A DNA stretch of 64,000 nt, from the NCBI RefSeq assembly GCF_030373225.1, contig NZ_JAUCZG010000003.1:124001-188000 (forward strand). Reading direction: 5' to 3'. Numbering within the stretch: position 1 is the first letter of the stretch; each line of letters opens with the position of its first letter. The notes beneath the pieces were generated by a model. The model saw only the letters and a program-made list of their open reading frames with translations, made no database searches and was not told the origin of the DNA. Of this stretch, positions 7,869-59,619 are shown piece after piece. The DNA is from Hydrogenophaga sp. (lineage in GTDB: Bacteria; Pseudomonadota; Gammaproteobacteria; Burkholderiales; Burkholderiaceae_C). The position numbers and the translations under genes were made by a program.

Positions 7869-7985
7869 GGCACCTCAAGGCAAGGACATCACTTGCGACT
7901 CACCACCGCGGGCGCTCTGAGTCGTCTGAGGGCCGCGACAGGCTGGGCTCACGCCCACCCGCTCCGCTGCGACCGGATCGGCAAA

Positions 7986-7995
7986 GTGTATACAG
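7986..7995 (-). promoter_or_regulatory. Candidate GntR operator upstream of puuD
   Basis: The core TGTATACA is at 7987-7994, between xdhC and puuD. Read toward puuD it is CTGTATACACTTTGC, which matches the sites before the NCS2 permease and ABC genes in sequence and orientation. It lies 118 bases from the puuD start. Assignment to the GntR protein at 10168-10833 is inference. Confidence 0.65.
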
Positions 7996-8008
7996 ATTTT
8001 GAAGACAA

Positions 8009-10094: not shown

Positions 10095-10126
10095 CGTCAT
10101 CCTTGAAGTGGTTGGCAGTCGACTGA

Positions 10127-10140
10127 AAGTGTATACACTT
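10127..10140. promoter_or_regulatory. Perfect 14-bp palindromic operator between uraH and gntR
   Basis: AAGTGTATACACTT is a perfect 14-base palindrome and fits the GT-rich/AC-rich half-site pattern known for FadR-type GntR regulators. It lies 32 bases from the uraH start and 27 from the gntR start. A possible gntR promoter, TTGGCA at 10112-10117 and TACACT at 10134-10139 with 16-base spacing, would be covered by it, which suggests autorepression. Confidence 0.75.
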
Positions 10141-10167
10141 TTTGCCTTTTTTGGATATGATGCGGCG

Positions 10168-10833: not shown

Positions 10834-10891
10834 TTCTTCCCCGTTGCCTGCGCACCGCGTGTTGCCGCATCACTCCGCCAGGAGCAATGCC

Positions 10892-10911
10892 TGCGGCCCG
10901 GCAGAGCCGGC
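10892..10911. repeat. Dispersed intergenic GC-rich repeat, copy 2
   Basis: TGCGGCCCGGCAGAGCCGGC matches copy 1 at 9671-9690 at all but one position over its first 18 bases. It lies in the 117-base gap between gntR and puuE, where no TGTATACA site is seen, consistent with read-through from gntR into puuE. Confidence 0.45.
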
Positions 10912-10950
10912 AGCACTGCATTTCCGGTTGATTCCATCTCGCTCCATCTC

Positions 10951-11901: not shown

Positions 11902-11904
11902 CCC

Positions 11905-13713
11905 ATGACCCTCACCCTGCAACAACTCAACACCGCCGCGCCCGAGGAGGCACTGCGCCTGCTGGACGGCCTGTACGAACATTCCCCGTGGATCGCCGAG
12001 CAGGCGCTTGCACAGCGCCCCTTTGTCTCGCTGTCCGCGCTCAAGCACGCCATGGTGACGGTGCTGGCCAACGCCGGTGTGGACGCCCAGCTGGCCCTCA
12101 TCCGCGCCCACCCGGAGCTCGCCGGCAAGGCCATGGTGAGCCGGTCGCTGACCGCCGAGTCCACCCACGAACAGACCCGGGCCGGCCTCACCGACTGCAC
12201 CCCTGCGGAGTTCGACCACATCCAGCACCTCAACGCGCAGTACAACGCGAAGTTCGGCTTTCCTTTCATTCTGGCCGTGCGCGGTCCGCGCGGCACCGGC
12301 CTGTCCAAGCGGGAGATCATTGCCACCTTCGAGCGGCGCCTCGGCAACCCGAGCGACTTCGAACGAAACGAGTGCCTGCGCAACATCCACCGCATTGCCG
12401 AGATCCGCCTGAACGACAAGTTCGGCTTCGAGCCACGGCTGGGCAACGCGGTGTGGGACTGGCACGAAGACCTGGCGCGTCACAGCGATCCCGGATTCGC
12501 GGAACGCGGTGAACTCACCGTGACCTACCTCACCGATGCGCACCGGGCGTGTGCGGCCGATCTGGTGGAACGCATGAAGGCATGCGGGTTTGATGAGGTG
12601 AAGATCGATGCTGTCGGGAACGTGGTGGGTGTCTACGGCGCCAGCCCTTTCCCCAGCCCTCTTCCGCAAGCGGCAGGAGGAGTCAGGACGCTGCTCACCG
12701 GCAGCCACTTCGACACCGTGCGCAACGGCGGCAAGTACGACGGACGCCTGGGCATCTTCGTGCCCATGGCCTGCGTGAAGCGACTGCACGAAGCGGGCCG
12801 GCGCCTGCCGTTTGCGATCGAAGTCGTGGGTTTTTCCGAAGAGGAAGGCCAGCGTTACAAGGCCACCTTCCTCGGCTCGGGTGCGCTCACCGGCCACTTC
12901 AACCCGGCCTGGCTCGACCAGCAGGACGCCGAGGGCGTGACCATGCGCGAGGCCATGCAGCACGCCGGTCTGCCCGCCACACTGAGCGCGATCAACGCCC
13001 TTCAGCGCGACCCGTCGCGCTACCTCGGCTTCGTCGAGGTCCACATCGAGCAGGGACCGGTGCTCAACGAAATGGACCTGCCGCTGGGCGTGGTCACATC
13101 CATCAACGCCAGCGTGCGTTACCAGTGCGAAGCCATCGGCATGGCCAGCCACGCCGGCACCACCCCGATGAACCGCCGCCGCGATGCGGCCAGCGCCGTG
13201 GCCGAGCTCGCGCTCTTTGCCGAACAGCGGGCCGGCGCCGACGGCGACTCGGTGGCCACCATCGGCATGCTGCAGGTGCCGGGCGGATCGATCAACGTGG
13301 TGCCCGGACGCTGCCGTTTTTCGCTGGACCTGCGCGCACCCTCCGATGCACAGCGCGACGCGCTCGAGCGCGACATCCTGGCGCAGCTGCGTGCCATCTG
13401 CGAGCGCCGGGGCATCGGCCTGAGCCTGGAGGAAACCATGCGTGCGTCCGCTGCCCCCAGTGCGCCTGCGTGGCAGCTGCGCTGGGAACGCGCCGTGGCG
13501 GCACTCGGTGTGCCGCTGCACCGCATGCCCAGCGGCGCCGGCCATGACGCGATGAAGCTGCACGAACGGATGCCCCAGGCCATGCTGTTTGTGCGCGGCC
13601 TCAACAGCGGCATCAGCCACAACCCGCTCGAGTCCACCACCAGCGACGACATCGAGCTGTGTGTGGACGCCTTCTCGCACCTGCTCGACCAACTCGCCAC
13701 CGAACACCGCTGA
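11905..13713 (+). CDS. Fusion: OHCU decarboxylase (UraD) + allantoate amidohydrolase
   Basis: One reading frame of 602 residues with two enzymes of the same pathway. Residues 1-165 are OHCU decarboxylase, with the HPELAGK motif (catalytic-type H69) and FGFPFILAVRG; it makes S-allantoin. Residues about 180-602 are an M20-type allantoate amidohydrolase/N-carbamoylase. Motifs in order are GSHFDTVRNGGKYDGRLG (metal site, near 266-283), FSEEEGQRY, HIEQGPVL, SHAGTTPMNRR, NVVPGRC, and PSGAGHDA. Between the domains, residues 246-259 are a Pro/Ala/Gly-rich insertion that looks like a captured intergenic repeat. PuuE, three bases upstream, catalyses the step between the two domains. Fusion proteins of this type exist in related genomes; I know of no structural study. 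Confidence 0.92.
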   Translation: MTLTLQQLNTAAPEEALRLLDGLYEHSPWIAEQALAQRPFVSLSALKHAMVTVLANAGVDAQLALIRAHPELAGKAMVSRSLTAESTHEQTRAGLTDCTPAEFDHIQHLNAQYNAKFGFPFILAVRGPRGTGLSKREIIATFERRLGNPSDFERNECLRNIHRIAEIRLNDKFGFEPRLGNAVWDWHEDLARHSDPGFAERGELTVTYLTDAHRACAADLVERMKACGFDEVKIDAVGNVVGVYGASPFPSPLPQAAGGVRTLLTGSHFDTVRNGGKYDGRLGIFVPMACVKRLHEAGRRLPFAIEVVGFSEEEGQRYKATFLGSGALTGHFNPAWLDQQDAEGVTMREAMQHAGLPATLSAINALQRDPSRYLGFVEVHIEQGPVLNEMDLPLGVVTSINASVRYQCEAIGMASHAGTTPMNRRRDAASAVAELALFAEQRAGADGDSVATIGMLQVPGGSINVVPGRCRFSLDLRAPSDAQRDALERDILAQLRAICERRGIGLSLEETMRASAAPSAPAWQLRWERAVAALGVPLHRMPSGAGHDAMKLHERMPQAMLFVRGLNSGISHNPLESTTSDDIELCVDAFSHLLDQLATEHR

Positions 13714-47198: not shown

Positions 47199-48110
47199 AT
47201 GCCTGTCACGTTGATTGCCGAATTCTTCCTTCTGGCTGCCCTGTGGGGCTCGTCTTTCCTCTTCATGCGACTGGGAGCGGCCGAATTCGGCATCGTGCCT
47301 ACCGCGGGGCTGAGGGTGTTGCTGGCCGCGCTCTTCCTGCTGCCGGTGTTTCTGGTCAAGGGGGTCTGGGCCGATTTCCGCCGGCGCGCCCGGGCCATCC
47401 TGTTCGTCGGCCTGCTCAATTCGGGCATTCCGTTCATGTTGTTCGCGTTTGCCGTGATGCACATCACCACCGGGCTGACCTCCATCCTGAACGCCACCGT
47501 GCCGCTCACCGGCGCCGTGGTGGCCTGGCTGTGGCTCAAGGACCGTCCGGGTGGCTCGCGACTGCTGGGGCTGGCCATCGGCTTTGCCGGGGTCACGCTG
47601 CTGGTCATCGGCAAATCGGGCTTCAGCGCCACCGGTGTGGCCGGCGCCGGCTCCGCCGGCATCACCCTGCTGGCCATGGGCGCCTGTCTGCTGGCCACGC
47701 TGTGTTATGGCCTGGCGGCCAGCTTCACCAAACGCCACCTCACCGGCGCCCACCCCCTGGCCACCGCCACCGGCAGCCAGATCGGCGCCGCGCTTGGCCT
47801 GGCGGTGCCCATGTTGTGGTTCTGGCCCAGCCAGCCGGTGAGCATCACCGCCTGGGCCGCCGTCGCAGCGGTCGCGCTGCTGTGCACGTCCATCGCCTAC
47901 ATCCTGTTTTTCCACATCATCGAACAGGCAGGCCCGAGCAAGGCACTGACCGTCACCTTTCTGGTGCCGGTGTTTGCGCTGGGCTACGGCGCGCTGTTCC
48001 TGGGCGAGACGATCACGCCGTGGATGGTGGGTTGCGGTCTGGTGATCGTCTGCGGCACGGCCTTGTCCACCGGGCTGGTGCGCCTGCGCTGGCTGGAGCG
48101 GGCCGCCTGA
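47199..48110 (+). CDS. DMT superfamily (EamA) transporter
   Basis: Membrane protein of 303 residues with ten predicted TM segments in two EamA repeats, starting LIAEFFLLAALWGSSFLFMR. The second repeat starts around GSAGITLLAMGACLLATLCYGLAASF. Substrate unknown; family members export amino acids, metabolites or drugs. It follows ogt by 12 bases and may be co-transcribed with the alkylation repair genes. Confidence 0.9.
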   Translation: MPVTLIAEFFLLAALWGSSFLFMRLGAAEFGIVPTAGLRVLLAALFLLPVFLVKGVWADFRRRARAILFVGLLNSGIPFMLFAFAVMHITTGLTSILNATVPLTGAVVAWLWLKDRPGGSRLLGLAIGFAGVTLLVIGKSGFSATGVAGAGSAGITLLAMGACLLATLCYGLAASFTKRHLTGAHPLATATGSQIGAALGLAVPMLWFWPSQPVSITAWAAVAAVALLCTSIAYILFFHIIEQAGPSKALTVTFLVPVFALGYGALFLGETITPWMVGCGLVIVCGTALSTGLVRLRWLERAA

Positions 48111-48160
48111 GGCGGGGAGCGCCGGCGCAGTGCCGCAAGCGGCCTGGCTCCGATGACATC

Positions 48161-48178
48161 GCGGGCTGCTCAGCCCGC
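48161..48178. terminator. Possible bidirectional hairpin between converging genes
   Basis: GCGGGCTG and CAGCCCGC form a perfect inverted repeat in the 171-base gap between the DMT gene and the regulator gene. It lacks a T-run on both sides, so termination is uncertain. Confidence 0.4.
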
Positions 48179-48210
48179 CTTCAAGGTGAACAACCGGGGA
48201 GAAGCGGAAC

Positions 48211-48221
48211 CAGACTGTCGT
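48211..48221. repeat. 11-bp direct repeat, left copy
   Basis: CAGACTGTCGT lies 60 bases outside the regulator end of the transport/catabolism cluster. The same 11 bases occur at 59369-59379, beyond the other end. See the matching finding. Confidence 0.4.
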
Positions 48222-48281
48222 CCCCCGGCATGTGCCCAAGCCGCTGAGCAGGAGAAGCGCCACCCGCGCAAGCGCGCAGCT

Positions 48282-50225
48282 TCAGCCCAGGTTCGACGAC
48301 GGTGAGCGCAGCGCGTGCAGCTGCAGTGCCAGGTGCAGCGCCAGGCGGCGCCCCGGCAGATCCCATGGACCGAGCAAGGCGTCAGCTGCGGCCAGGCGGT
48401 TGCGCAGCGTGTTGATGTGCAGCCCAAGGCGGCTGGCTGCCGCCTTGGCGCTGCAGCCCAGGTCGAGATAGGTCAAAAGGCTCGTTGCCAGCTTCGTGCC
48501 GCGTGTCCGGTCATGCGCCAACAATGCGCCGACGGTTGCGTCGATGAAGGTCTGAGGAGCTGGTCCGCCGACGGCCGCATTGTTGCCAAAAGCTGCGACA
48601 AATGGCGCGAGTTCGTCGACCAGACGAATGCAGGCTTTGGCGGTGAGGTCCTCCGACGCCAGCATGCGCAACAGCACCAGGCCTTTGTGCAGCCCCGCGA
48701 AGCTGTCCGGCAGCACCGCCAGCGTGTCGCAACGCGCCGAAACCAGTCCCACGGCGGTCAGCCTGGGCTTCTCGTCCAACGCCTTCAGCATCGTCTGGCG
48801 CAGCGCCGCGGGATCGCGATCGGCACACAACACGACAACCCGGCCGTCCATTTCGCAGACGCGAGCGCGAGGGTCGTCGAGCCGGGCCTGCAGCCGCCGT
48901 TGCACAGCCGTCGTGGTGGCGCCGGCGGCGCTTCCCATCGCGGTGACCTCGAGCAGCGCCAGCACCGTCGCGGTGCCGGACGTCAGCCCTCGCGCCGCGG
49001 CCCGGCCGGCAAGCGCCGCACTGCCGAGGCGCATCGGGTTCAGCAGGTCCGCCAGCAAGTGCTCCGAGTCGGCGGCCTGGGAGTCGACCGTCAGTCGCGG
49101 CGCCAGCAACATCAGCGCCACAACAAGTGCGCTGCGTTCCAGGGTGCGCACTGCGACGTCAGAAAGCGGTTCCGCGCTCAAGACCAGCAGGCCACCGAGC
49201 AGGCGGCTGCCGCCCACGATCGCCGCCAGACGGCCCATGCGTCCCGGCGGCGCAGCCATGGCCACGGAGCGACCACTGAGGCGGCTGTCGTCGAGTGCGG
49301 CGTGCAGTTGCAACCCCTGCAACCACCGGGCCAGACTGCCGCCGGCCCCGCTGACACCCACGCCGTCGGATCCGGCCATGCACAGGACCGTGTCGGCGTC
49401 ATCGACCACCACCACCTCGGCGCCAAGAAGGCTGGCAACGGTGCGGCACACATCGAGTTGCGTGCCCCCCCGGGCCACCAGTCGCGTCAGCCGTTCATGA
49501 GCGTCGGCCGCCATTTCCAAAGCTTCGGTCTGCTGTTGCAACCGCTGGTTGCTGAATTCGGCCTGCGCCAGCGCCCTGCGCGTCTGCGCATGGGCTTGCG
49601 CATTGCGCACCGCCACCACGGCTTGCGCGGCAAGCATCCCGAGGGTGGCGATGTCGGGATGCGTGTACTCGCGCACCACCCGGTCGGCGAGCACCAGCAC
49701 GCCGATGAAGTCGGTTCCTGACAACATCGGCACCGCCACCATGGACAGCAAGCCTTCGCCGCGCAAGGTCGCGTCGATCTGCGCGTCGTGAATGACCCGC
49801 TCATCGGCGAAATAGTCGGCCGTTGCGAAAGGTGAGCGGGTGCGCCTGACATAACCGGCGGCGCCGCGGCCGTGCGCGACGCGCATCAACTGCGCCCATT
49901 CAGCGGTGACACCGTCGATTGCCAACACCACAAGGTCGTCCTCGCTTGCGACGTCGGGCCCCGCAATCCAGCCGATGTGACTGCCAAGCAATGCGCGGCT
50001 GCGCTCGACGATGGCCTGCAGCACACCCGCTGGCTCTCGCAGCACGGTCAGGTCGCGGGCTGTATCGGCCACGGCCCGCCAGGCCCGCTCGCGGTCGCGC
50101 GACTGCGCCACCTGCAACCGCAGCGACGCCAGTTCGACGGGGTCGGCACTGCGCGTCAGTGCTGCACCGACGACCGCCGGATCGGGATCGTCCAGATCGT
50201 CGGGGTCGTAGGAGGGTCGGTGCAT
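48282..50225 (-). CDS. GAF-domain transcriptional regulator with PucR/CdaR-type HTH
   Basis: Regulator of 647 residues. A GAF-type sensor lies at about residues 45-195 (TARDLTVLREPAGVLQAIVE, GYVRRTRSPF and following). It is followed by a short coiled linker (AQAEFSNQRLQQQTEAL), a long PucR-like middle region, and a C-terminal HTH of the PucR family (LTYLDLGCSAKAAASRLGLH, then INTLRNRL). The ATG at 50225 lies behind GGAG and a run of eight C; an in-frame ATG at 50252 is the alternative. It diverges from the ABC importer genes over a 144-base gap with a TCCTGTG/CACAGGA dyad. Likely role: ligand-responsive control of the neighbouring cluster. Confidence 0.87.
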   Translation of the reverse strand: MHRPSYDPDDLDDPDPAVVGAALTRSADPVELASLRLQVAQSRDRERAWRAVADTARDLTVLREPAGVLQAIVERSRALLGSHIGWIAGPDVASEDDLVVLAIDGVTAEWAQLMRVAHGRGAAGYVRRTRSPFATADYFADERVIHDAQIDATLRGEGLLSMVAVPMLSGTDFIGVLVLADRVVREYTHPDIATLGMLAAQAVVAVRNAQAHAQTRRALAQAEFSNQRLQQQTEALEMAADAHERLTRLVARGGTQLDVCRTVASLLGAEVVVVDDADTVLCMAGSDGVGVSGAGGSLARWLQGLQLHAALDDSRLSGRSVAMAAPPGRMGRLAAIVGGSRLLGGLLVLSAEPLSDVAVRTLERSALVVALMLLAPRLTVDSQAADSEHLLADLLNPMRLGSAALAGRAAARGLTSGTATVLALLEVTAMGSAAGATTTAVQRRLQARLDDPRARVCEMDGRVVVLCADRDPAALRQTMLKALDEKPRLTAVGLVSARCDTLAVLPDSFAGLHKGLVLLRMLASEDLTAKACIRLVDELAPFVAAFGNNAAVGGPAPQTFIDATVGALLAHDRTRGTKLATSLLTYLDLGCSAKAAASRLGLHINTLRNRLAAADALLGPWDLPGRRLALHLALQLHALRSPSSNLG

Positions 50226-50257
50226 GGGGGGGGTTCTCCAAGGAGTTTTCAACCGAA

Positions 50258-50278
50258 TCCTGTGATTAACACACAGGA
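50258..50278. promoter_or_regulatory. Candidate operator of the GAF/PucR regulator
   Basis: TCCTGTG (50258-50264) and CACAGGA (50272-50278) form a perfect 7-base inverted repeat with a seven-base spacer ATTAACA. It is the only strong dyad in the divergent gap, 32 bases from the regulator start and 91 from the permease start. Confidence 0.62.
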
Positions 50279-50369
50279 AACCGATCGAAGGCTGTGCATC
50301 TCACACATTGCCACATTGCCGAGCTGCACCGACGATCGACGCTGGTTCAAAAAAAGATGGAGACGCAAC

Positions 50370-51341
50370 ATGAGGCTGCCCCGCCTGTCCCAGCAAACAA
50401 TTGTCTTTGCGATCTTCACCCTGATGTTCGCCGGCTTCTCGGTTTTGCTGCCCGGATTCCTCAACACCGGCAACATGCTGGGACTGCTGCAAAACGTTGC
50501 CATCCTCGGCATCCTGGGTTTGGGCATGGCGATCATCGTCATCGGCCGGGGAATCGACATTTCCATGGTGGCTGTGCTGGCCGTGCCAGCCGGATTGATC
50601 CTGCAGATGGTGCAGGACGGTCATTCGGTGCCCGTGGCCTTCGCCGCAGCGCTGGCGCTGGCACTGGTCTTCGGTCTGATCAACGGCTGGCTCACGGCCT
50701 ATGCCGAGGTGCCATCGCTGTTCACGACGCTGGCTTCGGGTCTGTTCCTGGCCGGGCTCGGACAGGTGGCGTTCTTTCGCCTCGACGTGGTGCAGTGGAG
50801 CCCGAAGCTCGACGGCCTTGCCTGGGTCGGCCGCGGCACGCTGGCCGGTATCCCGATGCCTGTGGTGATGTTTGGTCTGGTTGCTGTGGCAGTGGCCTTC
50901 TTCCTGCGCCGCACCCGGCTGGGCAGTTATGTCTACGCCATCGGCGACAACCCCTTCGGTGCGCGCACCACCGGCATCCCGACACGGCCGGTGATCGTGT
51001 TGCAGTACGTGCTGGCGGCGTTGATCGGGGCCTTTGCCGGCATGGTGATGGCGGCCTCGGTGAACAGCATGCCCACGCGCATTTACAACTCCACGCTGAT
51101 CTACGACGTCATCCTGGTCGTGGTGCTCGGCGGCATCGGCCTGGCAGGCGGGCGTGGCGGCGTGATCAACGTGATCATCGGAACCTTGCTGATCGGAACC
51201 TTGCTCAACGGCATGACGATCATGGACGTGTCCTATTCAGCCCAGAACCTGGTCAAGGGGGTGGTGCTGCTGGCGGCCATCCTGATCGATTCGTTCGTCA
51301 ATCCGCGCAACGAAGAAACCGCCCAACAGGGTGATATATGA
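50370..51341 (+). CDS. ABC transporter permease (ribose/RbsC type)
   Basis: Permease of 323 residues with about ten membrane segments. MAIIVIGRGIDISMVAVLAVPAGL is the RbsC-like region with the conserved Gly-x-Asp-x-Ser motif, and the C-terminal LVVVLGGIGLAGGRGGVINVIIG is also typical. The ATG at 50370 has GGAG seven bases upstream; the longer frame from 49872 is antisense to the regulator. It has no extra domain, unlike the second permease at 52524. The binding protein gene follows 61 bases downstream. Confidence 0.92.
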   Translation: MRLPRLSQQTIVFAIFTLMFAGFSVLLPGFLNTGNMLGLLQNVAILGILGLGMAIIVIGRGIDISMVAVLAVPAGLILQMVQDGHSVPVAFAAALALALVFGLINGWLTAYAEVPSLFTTLASGLFLAGLGQVAFFRLDVVQWSPKLDGLAWVGRGTLAGIPMPVVMFGLVAVAVAFFLRRTRLGSYVYAIGDNPFGARTTGIPTRPVIVLQYVLAALIGAFAGMVMAASVNSMPTRIYNSTLIYDVILVVVLGGIGLAGGRGGVINVIIGTLLIGTLLNGMTIMDVSYSAQNLVKGVVLLAAILIDSFVNPRNEETAQQGDI

Positions 51342-51402
51342 AGCGGCACCCCGTTCCTTCCGTCCCTTGCGGACACCCACCAAGAACCATCCGGAGACAC
51401 GC

Positions 51403-52413
51403 ATGACGAAACAACTCGGCATTCTCAAAAGCATCACCATCGCGGCCGCGCTGGGAGCCAGCATGGGCGCTTTCGCTCAGGGAAAGGGCCTTGAAGAGCC
51501 ATTTCGCGACAGCTATAGAAAAACCATGTCGGGCAAGGTCGTGGCCTATGTGCCGGTTGCGCTGGGTTTCGACCTCGCACAGGGCTGGCTCGAAGGCCTC
51601 AAGCGGGAACTCGAGCCGCTGGGCGTGAAGATCGTCGCCCGCGACCCGAACTGGAGCACCAACGCCGGCGCGCAGGCGGTGACCGCGCTGATCGGGGAAA
51701 AGCCCGATGTGCTGGTGGTGCACAACCCCGACGTGCAGACCTACGCCAAGTTGCTGCGCAAGGCCGAGGCCGATGGCATCCAGGTCATCCAGATCAACAT
51801 GCGCTCGTCTTACTCGTCGGTCGCCTATGTCGGCGCGGATTGGGTTGAAATCGGCGAAGGCGCGGCGACGGCTGTGGTCGAGGCCTGCAAAGGCAAATCG
51901 AACAAGATCGCGATTGTGCAGGGCGCGTTGTCTGCCGCAGCCAGCGCCTACACGCTCAAGGGCGTGGAAAACGTGCTGGCAAAAAACCCGCAGATCAAGG
52001 TCGTGTCCAGCCAGGCTGCCGATTGGGATGCCGCCAAGGCCAAGGGCATCACCCAGACCGTGCTCAAGCAACACCCCGACCTGTGCGGCATCGTCGGTTT
52101 CTGGGACGGCATGGATTCAGGCACGGCAGCGGCCATCAAGGAAGCGGGCCTGACCGGCAAGGTCTTCCTCGCCACGTCGGGCGGAGGCGAGCAAAAGGGC
52201 GCCTGTGATCAGGTCAAAAGCGGTGCTTTCGACCTGAACTTGAGCTACGACGTACCCACGCAGGCCACCACGATGGCTGCCCAGATCAAGTGGCTGTTGC
52301 AGAACCCGGGCAAGACGACTGGCCTGAAGGGTTCGATCTACACCACCCTGATCCCGATCACCAAGGCCAACGCCAACATCGAGGGCACGTGCTGGAAGTT
52401 GGGCAAATCCTGA
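51403..52413 (+). CDS. Sugar-type ABC transporter substrate-binding protein
   Basis: Periplasmic binding protein of 336 residues in the RbsB/Peripla_BP_4 group. A signal peptide ends near residue 25 (AAALGASMGAFAQ). The mature part shows VAYVPVALGFDLAQGWLEGLK, VLVVHNPDVQTYAKLLRKAE, and GIVGFWDGMDSGTAAAIKEAG. CGGAG precedes the ATG. The family binds sugars but also autoinducer-2, polyols and aromatic or lactone-like compounds, so the ligand is open. It is encoded between the two permeases. Confidence 0.9.
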   Translation: MTKQLGILKSITIAAALGASMGAFAQGKGLEEPFRDSYRKTMSGKVVAYVPVALGFDLAQGWLEGLKRELEPLGVKIVARDPNWSTNAGAQAVTALIGEKPDVLVVHNPDVQTYAKLLRKAEADGIQVIQINMRSSYSSVAYVGADWVEIGEGAATAVVEACKGKSNKIAIVQGALSAAASAYTLKGVENVLAKNPQIKVVSSQAADWDAAKAKGITQTVLKQHPDLCGIVGFWDGMDSGTAAAIKEAGLTGKVFLATSGGGEQKGACDQVKSGAFDLNLSYDVPTQATTMAAQIKWLLQNPGKTTGLKGSIYTTLIPITKANANIEGTCWKLGKS

Positions 52414-52523
52414 TCCGCATGGCCCGGCTGGCCGGGCGTGCCCGACACGTCGCGGCCTCGCCAACCCGCAATGCCGTCGCACGCCGGCAAGCCGTCTGAC
52501 GCCCACAACCTGACCGCAAGAAC

Positions 52524-54710
52524 ATGGAAAACACCTTGAACCGAGGAGGCAATTTGCCGCCCAGCGCCCCCGCGGCGTCGGCTGAAGAGTCGCTGCGCGA
52601 CCGGCTGACCCGCTGGCGCTATCGCTATTGGCCGGATCATCTGCTTGGCGAAATTCTGGCCAAGCGCTGGATGGAGACGGCCATTCCGGTGGTGGTGCTG
52701 TTGTTGGTGGTCATTGGCCTCTCGCAGCTGTTGCCGAACTTCTTTTCGCCGTACAGCCTGGCCAATACCGGGCGCCAAGCGGGAGAAATCGGTTTCATCG
52801 TGTTTGGCATGGCACTGGTGATGATCGTCGGCGGCATCGACCTGTCGGTGGGGTCGACGTTCGCGCTGACCAATTTCACCGCACTTTTCCTGATGCATGT
52901 GCTCGGTTGGCCGGTGGTCGGCGCAGTGGCCGTGACGCTGCTCGTCGGAGCGCTGCTCGGCGCGGTCAATGGTGTGCTGATCGGCTATTTCCGCTTGCGC
53001 GCCTTCCTGACCACCCTGATCACGCTGATCATCTATCGCGCGATATACGACCTGGCGATCGCCGACTACTCCACCGCCATCGCTGGCGGCTTTCCCGAGT
53101 CCCTGTTCTGGGAGGCGATTGGCAGTGGCGGGTGGCTTGGTGTGCCCACCGTGATCTGGTGTTATGCGGCGGTCGCCGTGTTCGGCCACATCTTCCTGAC
53201 TCGGCTGCGGCCTGGATGGCACATCACGGCCATCGGTGGCTCTCGCCGTTCGGCCTACAACACCGGAATCGCCGTGCGCCGCACGGTGGCGCTGACCTAC
53301 GTGGCCAGCGGCGTTCTCACCGCCATCGGCGGCATCTTCTTCGCGTCACGTCTGGCCACCGCCGGCGGCGACATCGGCGTGGGACTGGAAGTCACGGTGC
53401 TGACCGCGGCCGTGATCGGTGGCATCAGCCTGGGTGGCGGCAAGGGCTCGGTCATGAAGGCGATGGTCGGCACCTTGATCGTGCTGCTGGTCATCAACGG
53501 GATGACGTCGCTTTCCCTGCATGGCGGCTTCAACCGCATGGTGCTGGCCAGCATCCTGATCCTGGCGGCGGTGATCGACATCCGATGGCTCAAGAACCGC
53601 CACCGCATCGTCAGCAAGGTCTATGTCAGCCCGACCTACCACGCACTTCCGCCCTTGCCGTCGACCGCACCCGATTGCGGAACCGCTTGGGCACAAAACG
53701 ACAAACTGCGCTCCGTCAAGGTCATTGGCCTGGGCCTTATCGAAGGCCCGGAGGACGTGATCCTCGATCGTCACGACAACCTGTATGCCGGCTCGCGCCA
53801 CGGCGACATCATCCGGTTCTTCCCGCCGGAATACGAACGCATGGAGGTCTATGCGCACATCGGCGGCACACCACTTGGCATGGCGTTCGACCGTCTGGAC
53901 AACCTGTATGTCTGCGTCGGTGGCATGGGCCTGTACCGAGTGACTCCGCAGCGCGTGGTGGAGAAGGTGACGGACGAGACGAATCGCAATTACATGTCGG
54001 TGAACGACGACAGCCGGTTGCGCCTCGCCGACGACTTGGACATCACTGACGACGGCCGCATTTTCTTCTCCGAGGCCACGGTGCGCTACGAGATGCATGA
54101 GTGGGCCACAGACGGGCTGGAGGCCCGCGGCAACGGCCGCATCATTTGTTACGACACGCGCAGCGGCAAGACGCACACGGTGATCCGCGACCTGCAGTTC
54201 CCCAACGGGGTGTGCATCGCCAGCGACGGCCAATCCTTCCTGTTCGCCGAGACCTGGGGCTGCAGCGTCAAGCGCCACTGGTTCGACGGGCCAAAGGCGG
54301 GCACCACCGAGACCGTACTGGAAAATCTGCCTGGTTTCCCGGACAACATCAACAACGCGTCGGACGGCAACTACTGGATGTCATTGGTGGGCATGCGCTG
54401 CCCGGCGTTGGATCTGGCCTGGCGCATGCCGGGGTTCCGCCAACGCATGGCAAAGCAGGTACCGCGCGACGAATGGCTGTTCCCGAACATCAACACCGGC
54501 TGCGTACTGAAATTCAACGAGCAGGGCGAAGTGCTCGAAACGCTCTGGGACCTGGGCGGCGAGAACCACCCGATGATCACCTCGATGCGCGAACACCGCG
54601 GTCATCTCTATCTGGGCGGCATCATGAACAACCGCATCGGCCGCTACACCCTGTCTGACGCCGATCCGGACTTCGTGCAATACGACCGGCGCTGGGGAAA
54701 AGCCGCATGA
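52524..54710 (+). CDS. Fusion: RbsC-type ABC permease + strictosidine-synthase/SMP-30-like beta-propeller
   Basis: A single frame of 728 residues. Residues about 50-355 are a second RbsC-type permease, with VMIVGGIDLSVGSTFALTNF and GGISLGGGKGSVMKAMVGT. Residues about 395-728 are a six-bladed propeller of the strictosidine synthase/SMP-30 type: GLIEGPEDVILD, LYAGSRHGDIIRF, FPNGVCIASDG, FAETWGCSVKRHWFDG, and LPGFPDNINNASDGNYW. The Glu of EGPEDV and Asn of PDNI are candidate metal ligands. Because both permease termini are normally cytoplasmic, the propeller should be cytoplasmic. The ATG at 52524 has only a weak ribosome site; a TTG at 52554 lies four bases after AGGAGG and could be the real start. 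The next gene overlaps by four bases. Confidence 0.88.
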   Translation: MENTLNRGGNLPPSAPAASAEESLRDRLTRWRYRYWPDHLLGEILAKRWMETAIPVVVLLLVVIGLSQLLPNFFSPYSLANTGRQAGEIGFIVFGMALVMIVGGIDLSVGSTFALTNFTALFLMHVLGWPVVGAVAVTLLVGALLGAVNGVLIGYFRLRAFLTTLITLIIYRAIYDLAIADYSTAIAGGFPESLFWEAIGSGGWLGVPTVIWCYAAVAVFGHIFLTRLRPGWHITAIGGSRRSAYNTGIAVRRTVALTYVASGVLTAIGGIFFASRLATAGGDIGVGLEVTVLTAAVIGGISLGGGKGSVMKAMVGTLIVLLVINGMTSLSLHGGFNRMVLASILILAAVIDIRWLKNRHRIVSKVYVSPTYHALPPLPSTAPDCGTAWAQNDKLRSVKVIGLGLIEGPEDVILDRHDNLYAGSRHGDIIRFFPPEYERMEVYAHIGGTPLGMAFDRLDNLYVCVGGMGLYRVTPQRVVEKVTDETNRNYMSVNDDSRLRLADDLDITDDGRIFFSEATVRYEMHEWATDGLEARGNGRIICYDTRSGKTHTVIRDLQFPNGVCIASDGQSFLFAETWGCSVKRHWFDGPKAGTTETVLENLPGFPDNINNASDGNYWMSLVGMRCPALDLAWRMPGFRQRMAKQVPRDEWLFPNINTGCVLKFNEQGEVLETLWDLGGENHPMITSMREHRGHLYLGGIMNNRIGRYTLSDADPDFVQYDRRWGKAA

Positions 54711-55819
54711 TCACCGCCATCAAACAATGGAGCGACCGCCTGCTCGGGCGCGGCGCGGCGTCGATCACCGTGCCGGTATTCGACGGCGCATTGAAGTCGA
54801 ACACATGGCTGGAAGATGCGGCCGTGCTGAGCCAACTCGATGCACCGGTTGACCTCGCGAGCGACGGCGTGTCGGTGTTCGTCGCCGACGGCAACACGGT
54901 GTGGCAACACGAGGGCATCAGCACGCAATGGGCACCGCGTGCGGTGGCATGCGTCGACGCCGCCATCTCCGCCATCGCATGTGTGCCCGGCGGCGGTCTG
55001 GCGCTGGCCGTGGGTGGCAGGGAAGTGCGCATTGTTGGCGGCGCGCATGATGGCCTCGTCTTCACACAGGCCGAAGGGCGTGCGCTCAACTGCGTCAATG
55101 CGCTGGCGTTCGGTTCCGACGGCAGGCTGCTGGCAAGCGATGGTTCGGCCACACAGCCACCCGAACGCTGGAAGCACGACCTGATGGAGATCGGCCACAG
55201 CGGCAGGTTGATCGCGTTCGATCTGGCCAGGAACCAGGGTCACGAGCGAGCCAGCGGCCTGAGTTATGCGTTCGGCACCAGCGCCGCCGGCAATGGTGCG
55301 CTGGTGTGCGAGAGCTGGCGTCATCGAGTGCTGCGGGTCGACGCGAATGGCGGTATGCCGGTGCCGCTGGTCGACAACCTGCCGGGGTACCCGTCACGCA
55401 TCACGCAGGCTCGCGGCGGTGGCTACTGGCTGACGTGCTTTGCGCTGCGCACGCAGCTGGTCGAGTTCGTGTTGCGCGAACCCGTGTTTCGCAAGCGCAT
55501 GCTGCTGGAAGTTGATCCGGCCTATTGGATCGCACCCGCGCTGAACTCCGGCAACACCTACCTCGAGCCGATGCAGGGCGCGCATCTGAAAATGATGGGC
55601 GTGGTCAAACCCTGGGCACCGCCGCGGTCCTATGGGCTGGTGATCCGCCTCGATGACAAAGGTTTGATCCGCTATTCGCTGCACAGCCGCTTCGACGGGC
55701 AGAACCACGGCGTCGCCGCCGCAGTGGAGTGTGCGGGTCAGCTGTACCTGTTGGCCCAGGGCAGCAAGCGTTTGCTGCGCCTGTCAATCACCGATACCGA
55801 AAGGAACCTTGCCGTATGA
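54707..55819 (+). CDS. Strictosidine-synthase/SMP-30-like beta-propeller protein, probably not catalytic
   Basis: Soluble protein of 370 residues, paralogous to the propeller half of the upstream fusion. Shared positions include LPGYPSRITQARGGGYWLT against LPGFPDNINNASDGNYWMS, and REPVFRKRM against RMPGFRQRM. The Asp-Asn pair of PDNI is replaced by Ser-Arg, and the first acidic ligand position (EGPEDV) reads LDAPVDL, so metal-dependent lactonase-type activity is probably lost. No signal peptide. It overlaps the fusion gene and the ATPase gene by four bases each (ATGA). Confidence 0.75.
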   Translation: MITAIKQWSDRLLGRGAASITVPVFDGALKSNTWLEDAAVLSQLDAPVDLASDGVSVFVADGNTVWQHEGISTQWAPRAVACVDAAISAIACVPGGGLALAVGGREVRIVGGAHDGLVFTQAEGRALNCVNALAFGSDGRLLASDGSATQPPERWKHDLMEIGHSGRLIAFDLARNQGHERASGLSYAFGTSAAGNGALVCESWRHRVLRVDANGGMPVPLVDNLPGYPSRITQARGGGYWLTCFALRTQLVEFVLREPVFRKRMLLEVDPAYWIAPALNSGNTYLEPMQGAHLKMMGVVKPWAPPRSYGLVIRLDDKGLIRYSLHSRFDGQNHGVAAAVECAGQLYLLAQGSKRLLRLSITDTERNLAV

Positions 55820-57330
55820 GCACCGCGTCTGTCTCCGTTGTGCCCATGCTGGAGTTGCGCAAGGCCACGAAAAAATACGCCGGCATACCGGCCATCGATG
55901 AGGTCGACTTCGCGCTGCTGCCGGGCGAGGTGCATGCCATCGTCGGCGAGAACGGTGCCGGCAAATCGACCTTGACCAAGGTGATGGCCGGAGTGGTCAC
56001 GCTCAGTTCGGGCGAGATGCGGGTCGAGGGCCGCATCGTCAACCCGCAGACGCCGAACGAGGCGCGCGAGCTGGGCATTGCGATGGTGTTCCAGGAGACC
56101 AGTCTGGTGCCGACCATGACCGTGGCGCAGAATCTGTTTCTTGGCCAGGAGCATTTCTTCAACCGGCTGCGCGGCATCTATATCGCCGCGCAGCAGTTCA
56201 TGCAGTCGCTGCAATTCGACGTCGACCCGACAGTGCAGGTGAGCCTGCTCGGAGCAGCAAAGAAGCAGATGGTCGAGATCGCTCGCGCAGTGCTGCACAA
56301 GGCGCGCGTCATCATCTTCGATGAACCCACTGCGAGCCTGACGCCGGAGGAGAAGAAATATTTCTTCGATCTGATCGCCAACCTCAAGACCCGTGGCGTG
56401 TCGGTCATCTTCATCTCGCACGCTCTCGAAGAAGCCCTGCACATCTCGGACCGAATCACCATCCTGCGCGACGGCCGACACGTGGTCACCGACGATACGA
56501 ACAAGTTCGACCGCGCCCGCATCGTGCAGGCGATGGTAGGACGTGACTTGTCGCAGACGCTCTACGGTCAACGCAAGACACACGTTCGGCCGCAGGGAAA
56601 GCGCGTTTTGTCGGTGCAGAACCTGCGCATGGCGGCCATGGTGAAAAACAATTCCTTGTCGGTGTTTGCCGGCCAGATCACCGGCGTGTTCGGTCTTGTC
56701 GGCTCGGGCCGAACCGAGACCTTCAAGGTGGTGGCGGGTGTCATCAAGCGCGATTTCATGCACGGTGGCGACGTTTTCCTCAACGGTCGGGCGGTGCGTT
56801 ATTTCGTACCCGCTGAGGCGGTACGCGACGGCATTGCCTATGTCACCGAGGATCGCAAGATCGAAGGCTTCTTCGAGACCAGGTCGATCGCCGACAACAT
56901 CTACCTGGGATTGCTGGCCAAGTTGCGCGGGCGGCGAACATTGGTGTCCCGAGCCGAGGCGGGCGAGATCGGCGAAGCGTGGATCAAGCGGCTGAACATC
57001 CGCGCCATCAATCGCGACGTCAAGGCCATCGAACTGTCCGGGGGCAACCAGCAGAAGGTGGTGATTGCCAAATCGCTGATTCAGGATCCCGAACTGATCA
57101 TCTTCGACGAGCCGACGCGCGGCGTCGACGTCGGCGCCATCAGCGAGATCCATGAACTGATCAACCGACTGGCCGATGAAGGCAAGGCGGTGGTGGTGAT
57201 CTCCTCGTACCTGCCCGAGATCATGGCGTTGTCCGATCGCATCCTGGTACAGCGCATGGGCAAGGTGGTCGAGGAGTACTCGGCGACCGAAGCCACCGAG
57301 GAGAAGATCATGTACGCAGCGATCCACTGA
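55816..57330 (+). CDS. Sugar-type ABC transporter ATP-binding protein (RbsA type)
   Basis: Double ATPase of 504 residues. The first half has Walker A GENGAGKST at residues 44-52 and a Walker B IIFDEPTASLT. The second half shows the degenerate VFGLVGSGRTET, the intact signature LSGGNQQKVVIAKSL and LIIFDEPTRGVDVG, the usual RbsA asymmetry. The ATG at 55816 overlaps the propeller stop. It powers both permeases at 50370 and 52524. Its TGA shares one base with the next ATG. Confidence 0.93.
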   Translation: MSTASVSVVPMLELRKATKKYAGIPAIDEVDFALLPGEVHAIVGENGAGKSTLTKVMAGVVTLSSGEMRVEGRIVNPQTPNEARELGIAMVFQETSLVPTMTVAQNLFLGQEHFFNRLRGIYIAAQQFMQSLQFDVDPTVQVSLLGAAKKQMVEIARAVLHKARVIIFDEPTASLTPEEKKYFFDLIANLKTRGVSVIFISHALEEALHISDRITILRDGRHVVTDDTNKFDRARIVQAMVGRDLSQTLYGQRKTHVRPQGKRVLSVQNLRMAAMVKNNSLSVFAGQITGVFGLVGSGRTETFKVVAGVIKRDFMHGGDVFLNGRAVRYFVPAEAVRDGIAYVTEDRKIEGFFETRSIADNIYLGLLAKLRGRRTLVSRAEAGEIGEAWIKRLNIRAINRDVKAIELSGGNQQKVVIAKSLIQDPELIIFDEPTRGVDVGAISEIHELINRLADEGKAVVVISSYLPEIMALSDRILVQRMGKVVEEYSATEATEEKIMYAAIH

Positions 57331-57995
57331 TGGACCATGTCATGAACCAGCCTCCCTCATCAGGCACGAGCGCCGGCAAACGTGCGCCGATCGACTTCTA
57401 CTTCGACTTCATTTCCAGCTATGGCTACTTTGCCAGTTTGCGGATCGAGGACATCGCCGCGCGCCATGGCTGCACGGTGCGATGGCACAGCATGCTTTTG
57501 GGTGTTTCGGTGATGAAGGTGATGGGCCTGAAGCCGTTGCTGGAAACGCCACTGAAAGGGGACTATGTGCAGCATGATGCCGCGCGCTACATGCGTCGGC
57601 ACGGCCTGATGCTGGCGCGCAAGATCAGCGATCCGATGATGGACCCCCGGCCAGCAGCACGTGCGTTCTACTGGGTACGGCGTCACCATCCGAACTCCGA
57701 GGCGGCCTTTGCGCGCGCTGTGTACGACCGCTACTGGCGACTGGGCAAGGACTTGTCGCTGCCGCAGGAGATCGCCGCAGTTGCCGCACAGGAGCCGACA
57801 CTCGGCATCGACCCTGAAGCGCTGCGCGCGGGCGAGGCCAGCGACGAAGCACGCCAAGACCTGCGCGAAGCGGTGGCCGCAAGTATTGAATGCGGCGTCT
57901 TTGGCTCCCCCTTCGTTCTGGTGGACGGCGAGCCTTTCTGGGGCTCGGACCGCCTCGATGTGCTTGACGAATGGTTGGCCTGCGGCGGCTGGTGA
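57330..57995 (+). CDS. GST-kappa / 2-hydroxychromene-2-carboxylate isomerase-like protein
   Basis: DsbA-fold protein of 221 residues. FYFDFISSYGYFASLR near the start and GVFGSPFVLVDGEPFWGSDRLDVLDEWL near the end are typical of HCCA isomerases (named NahD in naphthalene degradation), written here as two separate motifs. The usual Ser-Pro of the glutathione-contact motif is Ser-Ser here. The family isomerises aromatic pathway intermediates using glutathione. Start at 57330 (TGATG with the ATPase stop) or at the ATG at 57342. Its substrate in this cluster is unknown. Confidence 0.82.
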   Translation: MDHVMNQPPSSGTSAGKRAPIDFYFDFISSYGYFASLRIEDIAARHGCTVRWHSMLLGVSVMKVMGLKPLLETPLKGDYVQHDAARYMRRHGLMLARKISDPMMDPRPAARAFYWVRRHHPNSEAAFARAVYDRYWRLGKDLSLPQEIAAVAAQEPTLGIDPEALRAGEASDEARQDLREAVAASIECGVFGSPFVLVDGEPFWGSDRLDVLDEWLACGGW

Positions 57996-58030
57996 GTCGC
58001 TGAGCCCCCCCAAATGAAACGGAAATCTCC

Positions 58031-59260
58031 ATGTCCACCTCGCCTCAAGCTGTTGAACGCGTTGCGTCACTGAGCGGCATCACCGTTCTCGACGTCACAC
58101 GGGTTGTCGCCGGGCCCTACTGCACGATGATGTTGGCCGACCTGGGCGCCATGGTGATCAAGGTCGAACACCCCACCGACCCTGATTTCGTGCGCGGCTT
58201 TCCTCCTTTTGCCGACGGCATCGAGGGCCAGGGCAGTGGGTACTTCGCGCAGTACAACCGCCACAAACTGGGCATCAGCCTGGATCTCAAGCGCCCCGAA
58301 GGCCGCGCGCTTTTCCTGGAGATGGCGACCAAGGCCGACATACTGATGGAAAACTTCCGCCCCGGCACAATGGAGAAGCTTGGCTTGGGTTACGAGACGT
58401 TGCGGCCACTGTGTCCGAGGCTGATCTACACCTCGATCAGCGGTTTTGGCCAAAGCGGGCCGCATTCGCGCCGCCCGGCCTTCGACAGCACCGCGCAGGC
58501 CGCCGGCGGACTCTGGTCGATGAACGGCGAGGCCGACGCGCCGCCGGTGCGCGTGGGCAGCATCATCGGTGACCTTGCCGCATCGTTTTATGCCACCATC
58601 GCCACGCTTGCCGCGCTGCGCGAGCGTGAACACAGCGGCCTTGGCCAGCGCGTCGACGTCGCCCAGCAGGATTCGGTGGTGACGCTCACCGAAAACGCCA
58701 TCGTCAATTACACGATGGCGGGTATCGTCGCCAGCCCAATGGGCAACGAACACCCATTCGCCAAGCCCTACGGTCAATATGCGTGCAAGGACGGGCACGT
58801 GTTCTTCGGCAGCTACAGCGACAAGCTGTGGCGAGAGGCTTGCCTTGTCTTCGGGATGCCCGGGCTGGCCGATGATCCGGAGATCGACACGATGGGCAAG
58901 CGCTTCGATCCGGCCACCTACGAGCGCCGGTTGCGCCCGGTCATCGAGGGCTGGTTCGCGCCGCGCACCAAGGCCGAACTGGAGGCCATGGCTGGCGACC
59001 GCATTGCGCTGACACCGGTGAAAAGCATGGACGAGGTGGTGGCCGACCCGCACCTGGCGGCGCGCGACATGTTCGTGCCCGTTCAGCTCCATGGCAAGTC
59101 GGTGACCGTGTTCGGCTCACCCATGCATTTGTCCGCCACGCCAGTGCAGACCCGTGGCGCGGCACCCGAACTGGGTCAGCACAACAGGGCGGTCTATCTC
59201 GACTGGCTCGGCATGGACCCCCAACGCTTCCACGCACTGCGGGCCGACGGAACGATTTGA
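58031..59260 (+). CDS. Class III CoA-transferase (CaiB/BaiF family)
   Basis: CoA-transferase of 409 residues, moving CoA between carboxylic acids. VLDVTRVVAGPYCTMMLADLGA at the start, ADILMENFRPGTMEKLG, and FDSTAQAAGG with the likely catalytic Asp are characteristic. It would activate a carboxylate for further degradation. GGAAA precedes the ATG. It is the last gene of the cluster, 35 bases after the isomerase-like gene, and no terminator is visible just behind it. Confidence 0.92.
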   Translation: MSTSPQAVERVASLSGITVLDVTRVVAGPYCTMMLADLGAMVIKVEHPTDPDFVRGFPPFADGIEGQGSGYFAQYNRHKLGISLDLKRPEGRALFLEMATKADILMENFRPGTMEKLGLGYETLRPLCPRLIYTSISGFGQSGPHSRRPAFDSTAQAAGGLWSMNGEADAPPVRVGSIIGDLAASFYATIATLAALREREHSGLGQRVDVAQQDSVVTLTENAIVNYTMAGIVASPMGNEHPFAKPYGQYACKDGHVFFGSYSDKLWREACLVFGMPGLADDPEIDTMGKRFDPATYERRLRPVIEGWFAPRTKAELEAMAGDRIALTPVKSMDEVVADPHLAARDMFVPVQLHGKSVTVFGSPMHLSATPVQTRGAAPELGQHNRAVYLDWLGMDPQRFHALRADGTI

Positions 59261-59368
59261 AGGCAGCACACCGGAGGCTGGCTGCGGTGACCGGCAGACC
59301 CTTGCCGCGCAAGCCACGAGTGTCCGCGACAGACCGCATCGGACGTCTCGATAGGGCTCGGTAAACAA

Positions 59369-59379
59369 CAGACTGTCGT
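59369..59379. repeat. 11-bp direct repeat, right copy
   Basis: CAGACTGTCGT, identical to 48211-48221. It lies in the 282-base gap between the CoA-transferase gene and tRNA-Asp. Apart from this and the tRNA terminator, the gap shows only short reading frames without family resemblance. Confidence 0.4.
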
Positions 59380-59482
59380 ATTTTTCAGTCCGGTGCATCC
59401 CGTTTGTGCCGATTTTGTCGCGCCAGCAGGCGGGCGATCGCATGGCGCGTCTGCACTGGCACCGCAACGAGACGATCACAAG

Positions 59483-59513
59483 AAAAAAGCCCGCTGCTTT
59501 CGCATCGGGCTTT
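59483..59513 (-). terminator. Intrinsic terminator of the tRNA transcript
   Basis: On the minus strand, AAAGCCCG and CGGGCTTT pair in an 8-base stem, with an inner TGC/GCA pairing over a four-base loop, and a T-run follows. It lies 30 bases beyond the 3' end of tRNA-Asp and ends the tRNA transcript. Confidence 0.85.
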
Positions 59514-59542
59514 ATCCAAGAAGTTGGTTTACAACGACATTT

Positions 59543-59619
59543 TGGCGGAGTGGACGGGGCTCGAACCCGCGACCCCCGGCGTGACAGGCCGGTATTCTAA
59601 CCAACTGAACTACCACTCC
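59543..59619 (-). tRNA. tRNA-Asp (GTC)
   Basis: 77 bases with encoded CCA. The acceptor stem is GGAGTGG paired with CCACTCC, and the anticodon loop CCTGTCACG carries GTC. The TTCGAGC T-loop and GGTTAGAA D-arm are normal. It is the last of three minus-strand tRNAs. Confidence 0.97.

Follow-up and report, generated by a model that had tools for sequence, protein, structure and literature searches.

A ribose-type ABC importer cluster of Hydrogenophaga sp. with a propeller domain joined to one of its permeases

INTRODUCTION

The pairing of an ATP-binding cassette (ABC) transporter with a hydrolase is known from YbbAP-TesA of E. coli, which the available part of its report presents as a Type VII ABC complex that works with a separate enzyme in the periplasm (PMC12646458). 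Among the propeller proteins, the accessible text on TGW6 indicates Glu59, Asn167, Asn226, and Asn272 as calcium-site residues that are conserved in part, and the calcium-binding relatives of TGW6 are said there to carry at least two acidic residues, versus the single one at the site of TGW6 (PMC10958001). As far as the excerpts of two further studies go, ACAD10/11 and the bacterial LvaA/LvaC phosphorylate 4-hydroxyacyl-CoA and then eliminate the phosphate, the 4-hydroxy acids being made in those studies by gamma-lactone opening (PMC11342911, PMC12440821); the lva operon is described in the available part of another report (PMC6692424). Here we consider a gene cluster at positions 48282 to 59260 of a 64,000-nucleotide stretch of Hydrogenophaga sp. 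DNA (hereafter, the window), which encodes the parts of a ribose-type ABC importer and in which one of two permeases is continuous with a strictosidine-synthase/SMP-30-like propeller.

RESULTS

A permease and a propeller in a single reading frame

The reading of the sequence and of its open reading frames (ORFs) gave eight genes in 48282-59260 (Table 1), and not nine as counted in an earlier note on this DNA, since the second permease and the first propeller share a single ORF of 728 aa (52524-54710). Its product is laid out as a permease (about residues 48 to 355), a linker, and a propeller (about residues 390 to 728), with a Str_synth domain above the Pfam cut-off (60.4 bits versus 25). By sequence, the nearest solved propeller is TGW6 (8kg3, 1.1e-22), followed by strictosidine synthases, and the profile search with the fused propeller also reaches DFPase (1.7e-5) and gluconolactonase (2.9e-4). 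The AlphaFold model of the fusion has a predicted local distance difference test score (pLDDT) of 80.2 and a predicted template-modeling score (pTM) of 0.55; Foldseek matched it with strictosidine synthase, TGW6, DFPase 1pjx (3.9e-11), and lactonase 7ris (4e-10).

The fusion stands among the parts of a CUT2 importer, all present in one cluster according to Pfam, i.e., BPD_transp_2 permeases, a two-domain ATPase, and a Peripla_BP_4 binding protein. The last has an N terminus that looks by eye like a signal peptide, and its best solved match is 2ioy (6.7e-21), with allose- and ribose-binding proteins ranking below. None of the importer parts reached a curated NCBIfam equivalog cut-off (ribose, xylose, allose, AI-2, and others), the best bits against the cut-off being 149.7/398 for permease 1, 155.4/398 for the fusion, 68.3/335 for the binding protein, and 458/699 for the ATPase. 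A defense function was considered and set aside, as none of the four proteins tried had a PADLOC match at E 1e-5.

A five-gene core with conserved order

When GTDB genomes were scanned with the fusion, 89 stretches were confirmed, and 80 of them were kept as the locus set. In 75 of the 80 loci, we found the same order of permease 1, binding protein, fusion, second propeller, and ATPase, hereafter the core; the remaining five (L025, L030, L036, L090, and L099) are devoid of the upstream core genes because the contig ends there. Among plasmids (n = 17 records, 13 regions examined, with H8, H15, H16, and H17 left out), the core is present in 8/8 loci (L122 to L129), and of five further regions four are annotated, all with the identical order, and one has no annotation. 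Since the five-gene order recurs in 75/80 loci and the other 5 are truncated, the core is more than a chance arrangement; the GTDB loci are not independent of one another, because most of them are from Mesorhizobium. The set includes Burkholderiales metagenome-assembled genomes (MAGs; 72 to 84% identity), rhizobia, other alphaproteobacteria, one enterobacterial MAG, and three Actinobacteria (L095 to L097, 41 to 43% identity).

The joining of permease and propeller is itself conserved: in 85/89 loci, the frame stays open for 690 or more codons between stops. The four shorter frames are those of L030 and L099, cut by contig ends, of L116, a fragment, and of L098, which is broken. In the last locus (Mesorhizobium huakuii, about 10000-11000), the permease half is split over two matches, and the frame has only 580 codons.

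Two further samples were searched with the second propeller. It was matched at E 1e-20 in 28 of 398 Pseudomonadota genomes, 11 of which gave strong full-length matches (E <1e-90, 17 copies) and the rest weaker ones; in 13/13 fetched strong loci, the window's own genome included, the permease half, propeller half, second propeller, and ATPase are consecutive (species of this sample may overlap with the GTDB set). In 399 genomes of the order there were 15 matches at E 0.001, strong only in the window's genome (G000) and in G187 (1.3e-84, the next being 8.7e-13). The fusion was matched in 34 of 60 relatives, where, the own genome excepted, the matches listed cover a single half.

The pairwise identities of five core parts are correlated (r 0.74 to 0.94 for pairs below 85% identity, the permease half of the fusion not being included), a value to which relatedness alone contributes. 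For permease 1, r was 0.12 to 0.71 with hits untied to position and 0.88 to 0.91 once they were tied to it (same pairs). The median identity among loci is highest for the propeller half (76%, versus 47 to 69% for the other core parts).

Putative metal site and orientation of the fused propeller

The TGW6 residues were mapped by means of the phmmer alignment, with a chain-to-paper offset of 28 that was worked out here and fits all four: Glu59, Asn167, Asn226, and Asn272 correspond to E410, D503, N561, and N608 of the fusion, and D607 adjoins N608. In the counts repeated on 88 loci (L116 left out), E410, N561, D607, and N608 are invariant in 88/88, and position 503 carries N in 64 loci and D in 24; L102 and L119, on the minus strand, are part of neither these counts nor the alignments of the two propellers. 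The same picture is given by a 29-row alignment with one sequence per identity group of about 92%, from which the short frames L030, L090, L098, L099, L116, and L123 were left out. Thus, the central metal-ligand set E, N, N, D/N is found in the fused propeller (88/88, with the E410 end, spanned by only the longer profile alignment, assigned weakly), and E410 and D607 give two acidic residues at the predicted site, versus one reported for TGW6. Metal binding by the fused propeller is a prediction from these residues. Furthermore, E690 is E in 88/88 loci, at what we take to be the catalytic position of plant strictosidine synthase; its conservation, a feature of sequence, is no proof of a Pictet-Spengler reaction on tryptamine/secologanin.

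With helix ends taken from the AlphaFold model, the number of Lys plus Arg residues (K+R) was averaged over 22 sequences. The N terminus has 3.5, loops 4, 6, and 8 have 2.0, 3.8, and 1.1, respectively, and the C-terminal linker has 6.1, versus 0.1 to 0.2 in the five outer loops 1, 3, 5, 7, and 9. These charges, by the positive-inside rule, and the model lead us to predict that the fused propeller is on the cytoplasmic side.

A second propeller that lacks most of the ligand residues

The earlier note had described two strictosidine-synthase/SMP-30-like propellers. The description holds for the first, which is recognized by Pfam (Str_synth, SSL_N, SGL); the second was matched by neither Pfam nor NCBIfam at E 0.001 and is classed here from its weak match with the first (27% identity, E 6.7e-19) and from structure prediction, i.e., a confident propeller in AlphaFold (pLDDT 86.9) whose best Foldseek match is strictosidine synthase (8.9e-15). 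No signal peptide was seen in it by eye. It adjoins the fusion in all 88 loci compared, and in 79/89 loci an in-frame start lies at the 4 bases that its gene shares with the end of the fusion gene, the start chosen being the one nearest to the stop of the fusion; L095, whose start was misjudged, was excluded from alignments A2 and A4 of the second propeller.

The central metal-ligand set is absent from the second propeller in the 88 loci, where the equivalent positions were read from motif context. The first site is acidic in 88/88 (V-D in the window), the second-site Asn occurs in 9/88, the third-site Asn is kept in 3/88, and at the fourth the PDN of the first propeller is replaced by P-x-R, with Arg231 in 88/88 and A, S, G, or C before the Arg. 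Other parts of the protein are conserved, most of all a KPW(A/S)P loop (residues 283-306) of low model confidence.

Insertion at a tRNA-Asp gene

The core and its neighbors in the window lie on an 11.4-kb insertion at the 3' end of a tRNA-Asp gene. When gltX and the EamA gene were searched in 60 same-genus genomes, both best hits were on one contig in 36, the own genome included, and the gap between them was <800 bp in 20, 2 to 30 kb in 12, and >30 kb in 4; in the window's genome it is 11,928 bp. In 11 same-genus regions, DNA homology to the window ends at 48082-48112 and restarts at 59540-59543, the tRNA-Asp 3' end, with breakpoints 48110 and 59543 in the closest two (L130 and L131); L139 and L140 hold the tRNA-Asp gene in part only. 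The insert has a lower G+C content than the remaining window sequence (0.639 versus 0.667).

No integrase occurs among the eight genes, and the search for a copy of the tRNA-Asp end on the left side of the insert found none. Near both insert ends there is an 11-base direct repeat, CAGACTGTCGT (48211-48221 and 59369-59379), present in two copies in the whole window versus 0.05 occurrences expected, which may have to do with the insertion. Given the 2- to 30-kb gaps of 12/36 genomes, insertions may be frequent at this site. In L140 (G023) the gap there is 24.3 kb, and 36 bases next to the EamA gene (about 999-1034) partially copy the tRNA-Asp end.

Table 1. Features of the cluster and of the insertion that carries it (positions in the window)
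Feature	Coordinates	Strand	Evidence and remarks
Regulator, GAF and PucR C-terminal helix-turn-helix	48282..50225	-	647 aa from ATG; Pfam HTH_30 1.3e-11, GAF 5.9e-11
Permease 1, ribose type, 323 aa, core	50370..51341	+	Pfam BPD_transp_2 9.7e-30; conserved order
Periplasmic binding protein, 336 aa, core	51403..52413	+	Pfam Peripla_BP_4 4.3e-40
Fusion, ribose-type permease::strictosidine-synthase/SMP-30-like propeller, 728 aa, core	52524..54710	+	Pfam BPD_transp_2 9.8e-26, Str_synth 1.9e-16, SGL 6.7e-11
Second propeller, 370 aa, core	54707..55819	+	AlphaFold and Foldseek
Two-domain ABC ATPase, 504 aa, core	55816..57330	+	Pfam ABC_tran 2.9e-48, two stretches
DsbA-fold, HCCA-isomerase/GST-kappa-like protein, 221 aa, cargo	57330..57995	+	Pfam DSBA 4e-30
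Class III CoA-transferase, 409 aa, cargo	58031..59260	+	Pfam CoA_transf_3 3.1e-120
Inserted segment, 11.4 kb, EamA gene to tRNA-Asp	48111..59542	.	Homology breakpoints in same-genus regions
tRNA-Asp, 3' end bordering the insertion	59543..59619	-	ARAGORN

Joints and exchangeable neighbors

The families recognized by the earlier note were confirmed by Pfam at their places (GAF/PucR HTH_30, two BPD_transp_2, Peripla_BP_4, ABC ATPase, DSBA, and CoA_transf_3), and so were the overlaps of 1 to 4 bases that it had seen from the permease-propeller through the isomerase: 4 bases are shared by the fusion and second propeller genes (54707-54710), 4 by the second propeller and ATPase genes (55816-55819), and 1 by the ATPase and isomerase genes (57330). 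The isomerase and CoA-transferase genes are spaced by 35 bases. The G+C content is 0.690 in the regulator gene and 0.631 in the operon, and the regulator may start at ATG 50225 in place of TTG 50252.

The genes around the core proved to be exchangeable. The idea of a single co-acting module stood for the five core genes, which kept together when neighbors were compared among relatives, and failed for the regulator, the isomerase, and the CoA-transferase; the unit of nine genes was therefore dropped, these three not being conserved with the core. The design of the transporter is recurrent, within a module that had been wrongly bounded. Of the 80 GTDB loci, at least 2 kb were available upstream of the core in 68 and downstream in 73. 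A regulator homologue was found in 0/91 loci (tblastn, E 1e-10) and, at E 1e-25 in the order sample, in the own genome and G172 only (2/200); close relatives carry other regulators directly upstream, i.e., a TetR gene in L021 and a GntR gene in L024. The isomerase occurs in 3/91 loci (L021, L022, and L024), each time followed by the CoA-transferase. It has the DSBA fold, with HCCA isomerase as its nearest solved relative (3fz5, 1.2e-46; 2imd, 1.7e-16). For the CoA-transferase, succinyl-CoA:mesaconate CoA-transferase was the best NCBIfam entry and was rejected as its identity (314 bits versus a cut-off of 700).

Cargo genes were counted anywhere in 93 loci by tblastn at E 1e-12 with self-chosen queries, so that distant homologues are missed. 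The commonest was a CMD-family gene (62 loci), followed by genes for aldehyde dehydrogenase (11), CoA-transferase (9), AMP-ligase (7), zinc alcohol dehydrogenase and acyl-CoA dehydrogenase (6 each), an APH-type kinase (4), and degradative HMG-CoA reductase (1). Of the 57 loci in its cluster, 54 have the CMD-like gene as the first one downstream. The kinase that follows the CoA-transferase in L024 has 3dxp (1e-94) and ACAD11 (4.4e-69) as best solved matches, and a kinase of this type, 98% alike over the available part, is present in L022. The L021 kinase is less ACAD11-like (best solved matches 9o56 and 9fsg; 3dxp just 7.9e-5), and that of L122 has 28% identity over 208 residues with the L024 kinase, so that the pointer to 4-hydroxy acids is limited to one lineage. 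In L021, ACAD11 is the second-best distinct solved match of the acyl-CoA dehydrogenase. A pair of zinc alcohol and aldehyde dehydrogenases lies downstream of the core in L124, L174, and L097. These kinases, dehydrogenase pairs, and HMG-CoA reductase, small sets picked by eye, may represent routes that use lactone-forming hydroxy acids.

Other neighborhoods were noticed besides. In L125 (Shinella sp. HZN7, 10582-12923), the degradative HMG-CoA reductase gene abuts permease 1, hinting at the use of mevalonate or mevalonolactone; the link concerns this single locus, and the literature matches listed contain nothing on it. Three gene clusters occupy the upstream flank in 42 to 45 of 80 loci (e.g., L039, 3547-7614), with an aromatic amino acid lyase, an ornithine cyclodeaminase-family protein, and an MFS transporter as representatives. 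The window's genome has a second isomerase-like gene, 59% identical to the first (L190, G000:C5:14000-30000, at 7566-8156), near a Rieske-type oxygenase, AMP-ligases, and a Meth_synt_2 gene. The neighborhoods of stand-alone isomerases (10 proteins, six regions) were also tried as a guide and, containing AMP-ligases, aminotransferases, a Rieske oxygenase, Meth_synt_2, and SDR, did not fix the substrate.

DISCUSSION

Two features go beyond what the earlier note had seen: the core, its permease-propeller fusion included, is found in more than one phylum, and the cluster is an 11.4-kb insertion beside tRNA-Asp. The combination of a sugar-type importer, a lactonase-type propeller, and CoA chemistry that the note had pointed out is supported, and, in agreement with its remark that no pathway could be named for it, no described pathway was met in the literature searched. 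The explanation that we favor, with belief and doubt nearly in balance, is that of a hydrolase, probably a lactonase, which is tethered to an ABC importer and would feed a hydroxy acid to CoA-dependent catabolism. In its favor are the order of the core, the open frame of the fusion, the correlated identities of the core parts, the conserved ligand positions, the profile matches with DFPase and gluconolactonase, the loop charges, and those cargo genes whose products act on hydroxy acids or on the CoA esters of these. It is possible to hypothesize that the binding protein picks up a small compound in the periplasm and that the two unlike permeases, with the one two-domain ATPase, import it; the propeller on the cytoplasmic end of the permease would hydrolyze the emerging compound, at a lactone ring or a comparable ester, and the product acid, formed on emergence, would be trapped inside. 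The second propeller, with most metal ligands lost, could be a partner in substrate handling or assembly, and no second copy of the enzyme. The hydroxy acid would then pass to the adjoining cargo enzymes, whichever are present; in the window, the class III CoA-transferase may form the CoA ester and the glutathione-type isomerase may rearrange an intermediate. In a bolder form, which we regard as rather doubtful, this would be a widespread undescribed importer class, in which a metal-dependent propeller, covalently part of the permease and assisted by a dedicated but catalytically dead partner, obligatorily couples hydrolysis to import; lactone uptake would resemble group translocation, and the five-gene cassette would move between genomes and plug into local hydroxy-acid catabolism.

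Several observations weigh against a tethered lactonase. The alignment that pairs E410 with Glu59 is a local one of -2.6 bits, not significant alone, and the placement of the two halves of the fusion is unreliable because of the pTM of 0.55. As to the topology, the C-terminal stretch counted is 45 residues long and also has 4.3 D+E, and loop 2, inner by the scheme, is uninformative (K+R 0.0). Strictosidine synthase is not known to act as a hydrolase. Relative to the window, the ATPase is more conserved than the propeller half (65% versus 54 to 55% in most Mesorhizobium); conservation thus does not single out the propeller, and the idea that it is the most conserved part failed in this comparison. 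The commonest neighbor, the CMD family (62/93, mostly in one genus), has no pointer to lactones, the core of L026 adjoins cytochrome b561 and YceI genes, which are non-catabolic, and the cargo is too varied, so that one substrate is doubtful. The L024 kinase had no match in the window's genome, in a search without a positive control, and an Lva-type 4-hydroxy-acid route was not adopted there for this reason. Finally, TGW6, the nearest solved propeller, had no calcium bound according to the accessible text (PMC10958001).

The presence of the second propeller beside the fusion in 88/88 loci, despite the loss of most ligand residues, together with the conserved, interface-like KPW loop of low model confidence and a cargo that varies by lineage, would also suit propellers that are not enzymes at all. 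The fused one would serve as a cytoplasmic docking or gating scaffold, recruiting cargo enzymes or the second propeller, or as a ligand sensor, in an ordinary sugar-type import. We hold this to be unlikely, yet worth serious consideration, since a scaffold has no need of ligand positions that are invariant or N/D in 88/88 loci, though a structural metal could need them. If the substrate were instead a glycosyl ester, the propeller would split it as reported for TGW6 on indole-3-acetic acid (IAA)-glucose, and the acid would go to the CoA-transferase. TGW6 is the closest solved propeller by sequence and is called an IAA-glucose hydrolase in the portion of its report available (PMC10958001), and the binding protein is of the allose/ribose type; against such a conjugate, sugar-using genes occur near the core in some annotated plasmid flanks only (pentose-phosphate type upstream in L127, xylose isomerase in L172, amino sugar in L171, sugar ABC/kinase in L129), with no family common to the 12 annotated regions, and we consider it improbable. 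The fold matches with DFPase- and paraoxonase-like proteins could suggest a unit for export or detoxification, in which a toxic lactone or organophosphate would be opened without feeding catabolism. The periplasmic binding protein and the CUT2-type parts mark an importer, and CoA-forming cargo adjoins the core in several lineages, which makes this the most improbable of the explanations.

Should the propeller act on the transported compound, the cluster would represent an ABC importer whose exit is coupled to an enzyme, in Proteobacteria, Actinobacteria, and many rhizobia. It would offer a concrete test case for transport-coupled hydrolysis within a single polypeptide and possibly a marker of lactone or hydroxy-acid use. 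Three names are given to the fusion in plasmid records, "SMP-30/gluconolactonase/LRE family protein," "ABC transporter permease," and "Ribose transport system permease protein RbsC," and each of them conceals one of its halves. Neither the fusion nor the five-gene cassette is described among the literature matches listed (subscription papers not covered); a 342-aa strictosidine synthase family protein of Mycobacterium abscessus, tabulated in the available part of one of them, is unrelated (PMC11925935).

Comparison with described systems

The LvaABCDE/ACAD10-ACAD11 pathway of 4-hydroxy acids has a counterpart in the sister clusters L022 and L024, where the gene next after the CoA-transferase encodes a kinase of the same family. 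The cluster described here differs, in that such a kinase is not among its eight genes and that of L024 has no match in the window's genome. YbbAP-TesA likewise pairs an ABC transporter with a hydrolase, as far as its partly available report tells (PMC12646458), whereas here the parts are those of an importer and the domain is covalently attached at a predicted cytoplasmic end. Strictosidine synthase and TGW6 are the best matches in sequence and fold, but they have no joined permease, and TGW6, in the accessible text, has one acidic site residue and no calcium (PMC10958001). With the metal-dependent hydrolases of the SMP-30/DFPase/Drp35/paraoxonase kind, the fused propeller shares the fold and equivalent ligand residues; it differs from them in being fused to a permease and in a sequence closer to that of strictosidine synthase/TGW6. 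The ribose/xylose/allose-type CUT2 importers are alike in BPD_transp_2 permeases, two-domain ATPase, and Peripla_BP_4 binding protein, and we file the cluster as a variant of them because all importer parts are present. Different from these importers, the two permeases are unlike each other, one is fused to a propeller, and a second propeller gene precedes that of the ATPase; the new element is the fused propeller with its partner propeller.

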